DNA of 21,573 nt from positions 1 to 21,573 of IMG/VR virus record IMGVR_UViG_3300009703_000125. One strand, given 5' to 3'. The number at the start of each line of letters is the position of its first letter. Positions within the stretch are counted from its first letter, which is position 1. The stretch is from a virus. Below the pieces are notes generated by a model. It ran no database searches. It had not been told where the DNA came from and saw only the letters and a list, made by a program, of their open reading frames with translations. The position numbers and the translations under genes were made by a program. Below, piece by piece: positions 947 to 3,884 of the stretch.

Positions 947-1228
947 TTGTACGACGCGAAAAAGACTTCGTGTGACTGCGGCCTCGCTCTGATCTACGGC
1001 CACTGCTTCGCCTGTGACGACCCCCGCGACCCGACAGCGACCGGGGGCTGCCAGGCACAGAGCGCCACGGAGATGCGCTCGGGACACCCCCACGGATCTG
1101 GCCCGCCTGCTGGTCTCGTGGGGGGTCCTTCTCCTCTTCCTGCCCCGCTCAATGCAGTTGTTGTGCAGGCCGTCCGCAGATCTGTAGCTCAGGCCCAGGA
1201 CGGCGGGCCGACCCGGGAGAACGGATGA
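947..1228 (+). CDS. Putative small Cys-rich (zinc-knuckle-like) protein, doubtful
   Basis: This reading starts at TTG 947, which follows AAGGA at a six-base spacing, and gives 94 residues. The N-terminal third has KKTSCDCGLALIYGHCFACDD: a CxC then CxxC set that could bind zinc. The stop (TGA at 1226-1228) overlaps the next gene's ATG as ATGA, the usual coupling in this genome. Third-codon-position GC is high from 950 to about 1085 and again near the end. It falls in between, where a different frame (1014-1187) looks better. The two frames therefore compete, or a +1 frameshift joins them. Function unknown. Confidence 0.35.
   Translation: MYDAKKTSCDCGLALIYGHCFACDDPRDPTATGGCQAQSATEMRSGHPHGSGPPAGLVGGPSPLPAPLNAVVVQAVRRSVAQAQDGGPTRENG
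1014..1187 (+). CDS. Putative 57-residue single-span membrane protein, doubtful
   Basis: From GTG 1014 to TAG 1187 this frame has a basic, Arg-rich N-terminus followed by one hydrophobic span (ARLLVSWGVLLLFLP) and a short tail. Third-position GC is high from about 1074 onward, better than in the overlapping frame that ends at 1228. No ribosome site precedes the GTG. It may be a real nested membrane protein, the frameshifted end of the Cys-rich frame before it, or chance. Small membrane proteins next to phage replication genes are common, so it is kept as a low-confidence candidate. Confidence 0.27.
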   Translation: MTTPATRQRPGAARHRAPRRCARDTPTDLARLLVSWGVLLLFLPRSMQLLCRPSADL

Positions 1229-2106
1229 GCCTGCCATGGTTCAAGGCCCCGACCGCAGACACTGTCGCCGGCATGATGAAACACAGGTGGACAAGGGAGA
1301 ACCCCTGCCCCGTCTACGTGGCTCAGCTTGAGCTGATGGCGCTTCACGCGGACGGCAAACGCACCACATACTCGGTGCGCGACCTGGCCGGCCGTTGGGG
1401 GTGGTCAACGACTCGGACGCACAGGTGGCTCAAGAAGCAGGAACAGCCCGAAGCGGAACAGCAGCGGAACGCAAGCGGAACAGCAGCGGAACAGCAGCGG
1501 AACACTAAGCCTAAGCAATCACGGGGCCTTAGCTCCACGAACGGAACAGAAGCGGAACCCAATGCGGACGCCTCGCGCGCGCACGCTCCTCTTGAAGAGA
1601 AAGAGGGAGATGGAGATAGAGAGAACAACAAGCGGGAAGTGCCTTCCTGGGTCCCGTCCGGAAAGCCTGTTGGCCTGACCCGGGAGGAGGTCCATGCCCT
1701 GACCCTCCAGGCCCAGGCTCAGATGCTGAAGGACTACCGGGCTCGGAAGGGTGAGCGAGCAGGGCCACGAACATGGACCGGCCGCATCAAGGGCCGGGGA
1801 AGCACTACCCGACAACGGGCCCTCGCCCTGCTCATCGCCACCGAGGGCGCCACAGACGCGATGTCGGCCTGGGGCTGGTACCTGAGCGAGCGGCTGGACA
1901 AGGGCTACGGCGGCGACGGGATCGACACGTTCCTGGAGAAGGGAGAGACCTACGCCGCCAAGATCCGAGAGAAGCCCACACCCAAGACCAACGGCCAGAA
2001 GCGACACGCCGGCCACGACTGGTTTGGAGTCGCAACAGGCGGACATCAGCAACAGCAACCAAGGCGACGGGTCGACCCTGACGCCAGATCCGAGGAGGCA
2101 TCGTGA
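1225..2106 (+). CDS. Phage replication initiator-like protein with embedded iterons
   Basis: A 293-residue protein with ATG at 1225, GGGAG upstream. Residues 1-72 form a winged-helix-like N-terminal domain; the helix-turn-helix is about 49-70 (YSVRDLAGRWGWSTTRTHRWLK). This is the layout of phage replication initiators (lambda O / DnaD-like N-termini), which bind origin iterons and recruit the helicase loader. Residues 75-93 are low-complexity because they translate an 11-bp DNA repeat. Residues 110-135 are very acidic and charged. The C-terminal half (about 150-260) is helical with an SAWGWYLSERLDKGYGGDGIDTFLEKGETYA segment and ends in a basic tail. The next gene is helicase-loader-like and overlaps by four bases, supporting a replication role. 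No ATPase motif is seen, so it is not a helicase or primase. Confidence 0.65.
   Translation: MSLPWFKAPTADTVAGMMKHRWTRENPCPVYVAQLELMALHADGKRTTYSVRDLAGRWGWSTTRTHRWLKKQEQPEAEQQRNASGTAAEQQRNTKPKQSRGLSSTNGTEAEPNADASRAHAPLEEKEGDGDRENNKREVPSWVPSGKPVGLTREEVHALTLQAQAQMLKDYRARKGERAGPRTWTGRIKGRGSTTRQRALALLIATEGATDAMSAWGWYLSERLDKGYGGDGIDTFLEKGETYAAKIREKPTPKTNGQKRHAGHDWFGVATGGHQQQQPRRRVDPDARSEEAS
1453..1560 (+). repeat. 11-bp iteron array, candidate replication origin
   Basis: GCGGAAC starts at 1453, 1464, 1475, 1486 and 1497, exactly every 11 bases, with the unit GCGGAACAGCA (three perfect copies, two with changed last bases). After a 33-base gap with no match the array resumes in the same phase: ACGGAAC at 1541 and GCGGAAC at 1552. 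Since 11 is not a multiple of three, the repeat is conserved at DNA rather than protein level, and it puts each copy on nearly the same helix face. A purine-rich, A-rich stretch follows (about 1594-1630), which could be the unwinding element. Iterons inside the initiator gene are known from lambda O; function here is inferred. Confidence 0.6.
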
Positions 2107-2660
2107 CCCACGACGACATCCGGCGAGCATTCGCAGCACTCCAGATCGCAGGCATCCCCCAGCCGGCACAGTGGTCAGCCCTGGACCCTGACACGATCGT
2201 GAACTCCTGGGCAGGGATGCTCGATGACGTCCCACCGCACGCACTCGAGGCCGCTGTCATCGGCTACATCCGGTCAGGAGAGTCCTTCTGGCCCACCCCT
2301 GGAAAGCTGCTGAACCTGGCTCGGAAGGCAGCGCGAGGCCCAGGCCTGGACACCCACGCTGAGTTCCGGTGGCTGGTCGACACGGCCCACGCCTGCGGTA
2401 CCAAGGACTCCTTCAACCGCGCTATCGCCCGCAGGCACGGCACCGGTGTCCCGCGACAGCTCGCAGACGCAATCCGGGCCTTCGGGGGCTTCCACGCCCT
2501 GATCAACACCTTCCACACCCGAGACAGCCAGGGCCTCAAGGACTTTCACTTCAGGCTCAAGGACTTCCGGGCAGCCTACGCCGGTGCTGAGCAGCGCATC
2601 GAGGACGCCAAGGTGCTCCGGCTCGTTGACCGGGTGGCCCGGCGGGAGATCGAAGGCTGA
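2103..2660 (+). CDS. Helicase loader-like replication protein (G39P-type N-terminus)
   Basis: A 185-residue protein starting at GTG 2103 with GAGGAGG about seven bases upstream; GTGA overlaps the previous stop. Residues 32-70 read IVNSWAGMLDDVPPHAL, then AAVIGYIRSG and FWPTPGKLL. That pattern (Trp, short loop, helix of about 12, then W/F-P-P/T-P-G) is typical of the N-terminal domain of SPP1 G39P-like loaders and related primosome proteins. These deliver the host replicative helicase to the initiator-bound origin. The C-terminal part is helical and charged (about 130-185), as expected for a helicase-binding tail. It lies immediately after the iteron-bearing initiator gene, the same order as lambda O-P. 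No Walker motif is present, so it is not a DnaC-type ATPase loader. Confidence 0.6.
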   Translation: MTHDDIRRAFAALQIAGIPQPAQWSALDPDTIVNSWAGMLDDVPPHALEAAVIGYIRSGESFWPTPGKLLNLARKAARGPGLDTHAEFRWLVDTAHACGTKDSFNRAIARRHGTGVPRQLADAIRAFGGFHALINTFHTRDSQGLKDFHFRLKDFRAAYAGAEQRIEDAKVLRLVDRVARREIEG

Positions 2661-3031: not shown

Positions 3032-3264
3032 CGGTGCTCTATCGATGGCCGGGGTACCGGATCGTGAGCGGTGATGACGGTGTGGTCCTTGAGGAGACCG
3101 CAGGACTTGGGACGCCCCAGCCATGGCGCCGGGTCAAGGGCATCGCGCACGATGTGGCCGTGACGCTGCTTGCGTCGATGGCCAATGACCTCCCGATGAC
3201 ACCACCGCAACAGCAGGCGCCTCAGCACGTACACTCCCGGGACCAACCCGAGGAGGACCCTTGA
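3028..3264 (+). CDS. 78-residue hypothetical phage protein
   Basis: The chosen start is GTG 3028, which overlaps the previous stop as GTGA and follows a GGGAGG ribosome site; GTG 3034 is an alternative. The same frame is open back to 2929, but that part overlaps the zinc-ribbon gene in another frame. Residues 1-30 look like beta strands (TVLYRWPGYRIVSGDDGVVLEET), then one helix (RVKGIAHDVAVTLLASMAND), then a Gln/Pro-rich acidic tail ending EEDP. It is translationally coupled on both sides, being the last replication-operon gene before the lipoprotein. No function can be given. Confidence 0.5.
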   Translation: MTVLYRWPGYRIVSGDDGVVLEETAGLGTPQPWRRVKGIAHDVAVTLLASMANDLPMTPPQQQAPQHVHSRDQPEEDP

Positions 3265-3884
3265 TCGCCCTGCTGCTTGTCGCTTGTATGCCCCAGACCC
3301 CGGAGACCACCATCGAGGACACGGGCACAGCACCCGCCGTCACCGACACCGCAACCGAGACGGACACAGGGACCACGTCCACGGACACGGTCGACACCGG
3401 CTACCAGGCCGAGACCGGGGACACATCCACGGCCCCAACGGACACCGCTGTCACGGACACGCAGGACACGCAGGACACGCAGGACACGCAGGACACGGAG
3501 GCGCCCGAGGACACCGCGCCGACGGACACTGCACCCCCGCCGTTTGAGTGCACCAGCGAGTGGGGGAATGTGACTTTCAGCGACGGGGAGACGGAGCAGT
3601 CCAAGAGCTACACCGGGAGCTCTTCCTATCTGGCCGCTTACCCTCTCCAGGGATCTGGGGACCTGTGCTCCATGAGCAGCGACCGCCCCTGGCTCACATG
3701 CTGGGTCTCCACCCAAGGCGATTGCGACTCATCAGCCGTGATTGAACTTCCCGCCGAAGACGCAATGTCCGGCGACACGCTCCACTTCTGTCTGTCCATC
3801 GACTGGGACCCGGGCTCAGACCGTGGAGTCTGCACGCTGGATACGTCGAAGCAGTCCCTTACTTGGCAGGTCATCGCGTCATGA
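3261..3884 (+). CDS. Predicted lipoprotein with Asp-Thr repeat linker
   Basis: A 207-residue protein starting at TTG 3261 (TTGA overlaps the previous stop; GAGGAGG about six bases upstream). MIALLLVAC is a minimal lipoprotein signal with lipobox LVAC and Cys9 as the acylated residue; it lacks the usual basic n-region, so the signal is short. Residues 17-92 are almost only Asp, Thr, Glu, Ala, Gly and Pro, including a run of DTQ triplets. Residues 95-207 form a distinct domain with six cysteines (97, 136, 147, 155, 177, 191), enough for three disulfides, consistent with export. Asp-Thr-rich tethers occur in surface lipoproteins of myxobacteria and relatives. It may be a lysogenic-conversion or superinfection-exclusion protein; this is a guess. 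Confidence 0.6.
   Translation: MIALLLVACMPQTPETTIEDTGTAPAVTDTATETDTGTTSTDTVDTGYQAETGDTSTAPTDTAVTDTQDTQDTQDTQDTEAPEDTAPTDTAPPPFECTSEWGNVTFSDGETEQSKSYTGSSSYLAAYPLQGSGDLCSMSSDRPWLTCWVSTQGDCDSSAVIELPAEDAMSGDTLHFCLSIDWDPGSDRGVCTLDTSKQSLTWQVIAS
3456..3500 (+). repeat. Tandem 9-bp repeat in the lipoprotein linker
   Basis: The unit GACACGCAG occurs four times in a row at 3456, 3465, 3474 and 3483, followed by one variant at 3492. It encodes DTQ triplets. The period is a multiple of three, so the array can grow or shrink without breaking the frame; it is a likely slippage site that would vary the linker length. Confidence 0.8.

Follow-up and report, generated by a model that had tools for sequence, protein, structure and literature searches.

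An array of 11-bp direct repeats within the replication initiator gene of this phage is very probably its replication origin, a candidate of the SPP1 oriL type to which the initiator itself would bind. The window, by which we mean the whole stretch of DNA analysed, is a complete linear IMG/VR record of 21,573 bases with 65% GC, a contig of a small tailed phage whose left part carries the replication genes and whose right part those for terminase, portal, tail tube and tape measure; this 21.6-kb linear contig may be incomplete. An earlier note made from the sequence had placed an origin inside the initiator gene, and that proposal was strengthened by the HTH family of the initiator, by an anatomy like that of SPP1, by a DUE-like tract and by the adjoining gene for a loader of the G39P/lambda-P type.

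The array, the initiator gene and the loader gene

Direct reading, TRF and a repeat search bore out the arrangement described in the earlier note, namely five contiguous units at 11-base steps, a 33-base gap and two more units in phase. Block A (1453 to 1507, plus strand) consists of GCGGAACAGCA at 1453, GCGGAACGCAA at 1464, GCGGAACAGCA at 1475 and again at 1486, and GCGGAACACTA at 1497; block B (1541 to 1562, plus strand) consists of ACGGAACAGAA at 1541 and GCGGAACCCAA at 1552, and the last bases deviate in units 2, 5 and 7. Because the spacer between the blocks (1508 to 1540, plus strand) is 33 bp long, block B lies in the same 11-bp phase as block A, and the GGAAC cores in phase fall at 1455, 1466, 1477, 1488, 1499, 1543 and 1554. 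A degenerate copy, CAGGAACAGCC (1438 to 1448, plus strand), contributes an extra GGAAC core at 1440, which precedes the first core of block A by 15 bp and does not share the phase of the array. TRF reported an 11-bp array at 1452 to 1504 with a score of 90, and the repeat search a family at spacings of 11, 11, 11 and 55. The self-match at lag 11 was 37/44 over 44 bp; with the exception of a 9-bp coding repeat at 3455, no lag anywhere in the 21.6-kb record gave a better one. The feature had been drawn as reaching from 1453 to 1630; its seven units extend to 1562, but 1563 to 1630 contained no further full unit. GC skew, whose cumulative form had been suggested as a check on the origin, showed no switch at the array and was uninformative.

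Behind block B lies a DUE-like tract (1592 to 1635, plus strand), located by scanning the record in 40-mers for GC and purine content. The lowest-GC 40-mer of the entire record (GC 0.40) starts at 1592, about 30 bp behind block B, and the most purine-rich one (87.5%) starts at 1596, in agreement with the purine-rich, AT-richer stretch that had been noticed after the array.

The initiator gene (1225 to 2106, plus strand), recognised as an open reading frame with an HTH profile hit, encodes 293 aa comprising an N-terminal HTH, a low-complexity linker and a C-terminal domain of unrecognised family. The codons of the HTH core (1366 to 1452, plus strand; aa 48 to 76, LAGRWGWSTTRTHRWLKK), placed by alignment to a wHTH HMM, specify the likely reader of the iterons. 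Of the window's ORFs only the initiator was matched by a profile built from protein-selected relatives (23.4 bits, E 7.7e-7, against 0.05 for the ORF that came next), the match being confined to about 29 aa of the HTH core, and comparison with Pfam, PHROGs and the wHTH HMM recognised neither a wing nor the C-terminal domain. Searches for homologues of the whole initiator among phages, plasmids, IMG/VR and the PDB gave nothing significant, and none of the 28 loci of terminase relatives of this phage carried an initiator homologue. The AlphaFold model of the initiator was poor (pLDDT 45).

The next gene (2103 to 2660, plus strand; 185 aa) overlaps the initiator gene by 4 bp and encodes a putative helicase loader with a G39P/lambda-P-like fold. 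In VIA-align comparisons its N-terminal 70 residues matched G39P (1no1) with a Z of 8.4 and an rmsd of 2.2 A over 67/67 residues, and the loader matched lambda P (9oa1) with a Z of 8.7, the next, unrelated row having a Z of 3.4; such Z values lie where chance helical matches can occur, and the two best rows were both phage helicase loaders. Foldseek alone gave no significant match for the loader, VIA-align having given its matches on the same candidates. At the sequence level the matches were weak (phrog_9804 at 5e-5 and phrog_2289 at 0.27), and BLASTP of the loader against G39P found nothing.

Three other regions of the window deserve mention. A small cysteine-rich ORF (CDCGLALIYGHCFACDDP) occupies 953 to 1228, and its stop overlaps the initiator start by 4 bp. 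Positions 895 to 960, which contain the operator-like sequences CTTGTCATACAAG and TTTCTTGTACGACG and rank with the stretches of lowest GC in the record (877, 936), lie upstream both of the replication operon and of ORFs on the minus strand and may be a divergent control region. Finally, a putative lipoprotein encoded at 3261 to 3884 has Thr-Asp-rich repeats, with a 9-bp tandem coding repeat at 3455 to 3501, and its style recalls surface proteins of Myxococcota, which we take to be a hint at the host.

Comparison with the origins of SPP1 and lambda

Two accounts of SPP1 (PMC6316719, PMC5499656) describe the binding of gp38 to direct repeats of oriL, which lie inside gene 38 beside an AT-rich unwinding element. 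Gene 38 belongs to the same wHTH family (50% identity over the wHTH), and the SPP1 DNA right behind its wHTH codons reads AGAAACGACAG AGAAACGACAC GAAAAAGACAC GAAAAAGACAC, an 11-bp array that matches itself at 29/33 positions at lag 11, where the 95th percentile of shuffles was 22; the AT-rich AACAATGATAACAATGAAAACAATGATAAC comes next. We infer that this array corresponds to the repeats of oriL for which Missich et al. 1997 reported binding by G38P. As in SPP1, an 11-bp array was found behind the wHTH in Staphylococcus PVL, Enterococcus EH-TP1, Vibrio F89 and Bacillus Page; the period was 12 or 8/12 bp in iA2 and A118, and 23 bp in SL25.

With the G38P/G39P system of SPP1 the window shares the HTH family, the 11-bp array behind the HTH codons, the tract behind the array and the loader fold, and SPP1 gene 39 overlaps gene 38 by 4 bp just as the loader gene overlaps the initiator gene here. 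The two differ in iteron word (AGAAACGACAC in SPP1, GCGGAACAGCA in the window) and in the melting tract, which is strongly AT-rich in SPP1 whereas the predicted one of the window, at 65% GC, is purine-rich. G38P has a wing and a Phg_2220_C domain (PF09524, matched at 2e-20), neither of which is recognisable in the window initiator. Unlike SPP1, the window yielded no phage helicase, none being found among the ten larger proteins scanned, and no second, oriR-like array was seen in it. Because only the HTH core aligns, and wing and C-terminal domain went unrecognised, we assigned the window to the SPP1-oriL kind as a divergent member; the predicted origin is a divergent, GC-rich, remote cousin of SPP1 oriL.

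In lambda, too, the origin consists of iterons and an AT-rich tract and lies midway along the initiator gene, with the loader gene next (PMC7466680). Both features, together with an adjoining loader of P-like fold, recur in the window, but lambda has four iterons, and the window initiator appears to resemble wHTH proteins of the G38P type rather than O. The window initiator had no lambda O-family match in Pfam or PHROGs; some array-bearing relatives match O-like PHROGs. Lambda iterons are about 18-20 bp long, or about two turns, whereas the period in the window is 11 bp. Where the earlier note had pointed to lambda O, SPP1 G38P-oriL is the closer model.

An HTH protein and a cluster of sites would also be expected if the protein used the array within its gene chiefly for repression of its own operon, making the array a transcriptional operator or autoregulatory site, and iteron initiators often autoregulate as well. 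However, a scan of 850 to 1700 found no promoter-like site near the array, the only one (879 to 907) being on the other strand, and the low-GC tract conserved behind the array, the adjoining loader gene and the SPP1 precedent, which is an origin, all speak against a mainly regulatory role, which we consider unlikely.

One-turn arrays among relatives of the initiator

The wHTH protein profile was the sole criterion by which relatives of the initiator were gathered; 20 loci came from bacterial genomes and 80 from IMG/VR, and 85 relatives were distinct. Base autocorrelation across the 200 bp that surround and follow the wHTH end of these relatives was strongest at lag 11 (z 28.8 relative to codon shuffles); lags 22 and 33 were harmonics of this peak, and 12/24 formed a second class. 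In this sample, which leans towards kin of array-bearing proteins because its query profile, A2, was built from such proteins, a one-turn array (11/12 bp, or doubled) lay in the linker of 76 of the 85 distinct relatives; control segments of the same genes had such an array in 0/88 and 0/31 cases. The arrays started at a median of 20 bp behind the wHTH. As ACA recurred on the coding strand in 58 of the 76 array-bearing relatives and TGT in none, the orientation of the iterons is fixed. The iteron word drifts among relatives (AAGGAACACTC, AAACGACACTG, AAAAGCCACAG, CGGGACACGGT and others), and similar words accompany similar recognition helices even when the rest of the domain is corrected for, a modest effect (partial r 0.21, Mantel p 0.002); WSIHKVSDF, for example, occurs with AAGGAACACT and WSNTK with AACGACA. 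In 40/46 relatives, where 8.2 were expected, the gene's most AT-rich 40-mer lay between +30 and +160 relative to the end of the wHTH. In L288, L336, L338, L343 and L345, and also in SPP1, a 9-bp repeat (AAGAATGAT / AACAATGAT) behind the iterons forms the AT-rich tract and is possibly a repeated melting element.

The one-turn period, which the earlier note had thought unusual, is therefore the norm of the family, a hallmark of the SPP1-oriL-type origin and not an oddity. The note had also called for a comparison of repeat step and linker, and had named retention of the linker with loss of the repeat as the outcome that would speak against it; the relatives showed the reverse, the repeat being kept and its word changed.

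A search of IMG/VR for three CGGAAC words at 11-bp steps found 107 stretches, and a control with 10-bp steps gave at least 120 matches; raw counts were accordingly rejected as evidence. Only genomic context separates the two kinds of array. Of 93 distinct CGGAAC 11-bp arrays, 28 lay in wHTH-family genes, on the same strand and mostly a few codons behind the wHTH; for 10-bp arrays the number was 0 (independent profile) or 1 of 107 among the matches listed. Arrays of a scrambled word gave 1/19, and that one lay in an initiator gene with another iteron word. When nine proteins encoded by array genes were compared with PHROGs, eight matched replication families, which differed from one relative to another (the DnaD-like loader phrog_2514, the O-like phrog_345, replication initiation phrog_12556/270 and others), and L132 matched none. 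CGGAAC 11-bp arrays were seen as well in L032, L036, L054 and L127, whose initiator-like genes have poor scores against the wHTH profile; L054 matches phrog_12556. Loci of the 10-bp control, among them L166, L168, L171 and L177, carry a short, apparently non-coding array that recurs in many contigs, consisting of TGCGGAACGGTGCGGAACGGTGCGGAACGGCGGAAC followed by the DnaA-box-like GTTATCCACAGG, which looks like another, 10-bp iteron origin.

A distant twin of the window, L132/L386, is a 33-kb contig of an uncharacterised phage in IMG/VR, whose initiator is 30% identical to that of the window (BLASTP E 2e-9). The two have in common the linker peptide, CGGAAC iterons, the spacer, the purine tract and a loader-like next gene; L132 differs in having fewer units in block A and three in block B. 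From the last core of block A to the first core of block B the distance is 44 bp in both, AACACTAAGCCTAAGCAATCACGG (1501 to 1524, the end of the last unit plus spacer) matches AACACCAAACCTAAGAAATCTCGG of L132 at 20/24 positions, and the spacers share AACACYAARCCTAAGMAATCWCGG, with a GATAGAGATAGAGATA tract behind. A scan with an alignment of the window and L132 found L132's own contig and no other. As the L132 contig had no terminase match at E <= 0.001 yet keeps initiator, array, spacer and tract, the replication module probably travels as a unit.

These comparisons bear on the idea that the array arose by slippage, as a neutral tandem expansion without function in a disordered linker. The linker is of low complexity and the units are alike enough to be recent copies, but slippage would hardly produce the same position, period and orientation in so many diverged relatives with different words and in none of the control segments, nor hold block B in phase across a unique spacer that recurs, with the same core-to-core step, in L132. 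We regard it as very improbable.

Selection might instead act on the peptide, AEQQRN-x5 repeated every 11 residues, since contiguous 11-bp units crossing three frames necessarily yield an 11-aa peptide repeat. The units, however, occupy reading frames 2,1,0,2,1,0,2, and one DNA unit is translated variously into AEQQ, QRN, SGTA and so on. When 1441 to 1575 was recoded with synonymous codons at the phage's usage, the observed lag-11 match was reached in 1 of 5000 trials (p = 0.0002), and the six GCGGAAC words observed compared with a mean of 0.8 and a maximum of 4. Because the units span three frames and recoding rarely reproduces the match, it is the DNA that repeats and not the peptide, as had been argued beforehand, and a selected protein repeat is hard to credit. 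Least credible, to the point of being negligible, is a centromere-like partition site of the parC/ParR type: in plasmids, ParR can bind parC sites made of 11-bp direct repeats, but the gene that contains this array belongs to a replication-initiator family, and the neighbouring proteins scanned gave no ParM, ParR or ParA family match and revealed neither a ParM/ParR nor a ParA/ParB pair.

Proposed mechanism and implications

At an origin of the SPP1 oriL type, the N-terminal HTH of the initiator would bind the 11-bp iterons within its own gene, one protomer per helical turn, with all protomers on one face of the DNA and in the same orientation. The nucleoprotein complex would point at the purine-rich, low-GC tract and melt it, and the G39P/lambda-P-type loader encoded next to the initiator would deliver DnaB helicase. 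Given the scan of the larger window proteins, DnaB is presumably that of the host.

For the family as a whole we propose, with confidence evenly divided, a rule that would hold across phages of several bacterial phyla. The origin would be written into the linker, with one-turn register, orientation and ACA conserved and the rest of the word co-evolving with the recognition helix, and the result would be a self-contained, readable specificity code that prevents cross-talk between replication modules. No description of the one-turn rule was found in the open literature, and the broader rule of a fixed period with a drifting word may be undescribed.

On this reading the origin of an uncultured, GC-rich phage becomes readable from its sequence, and the combination of wHTH initiator gene, one-turn array, low-GC tract and loader gene offers a recipe for locating origins in many unannotated phages. 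The approximately 80 natural pairs of helix and word make the DNA-recognition rules of the initiator directly testable, and they illustrate how the same DNA can serve simultaneously as the code for a protein linker and as a series of binding sites.
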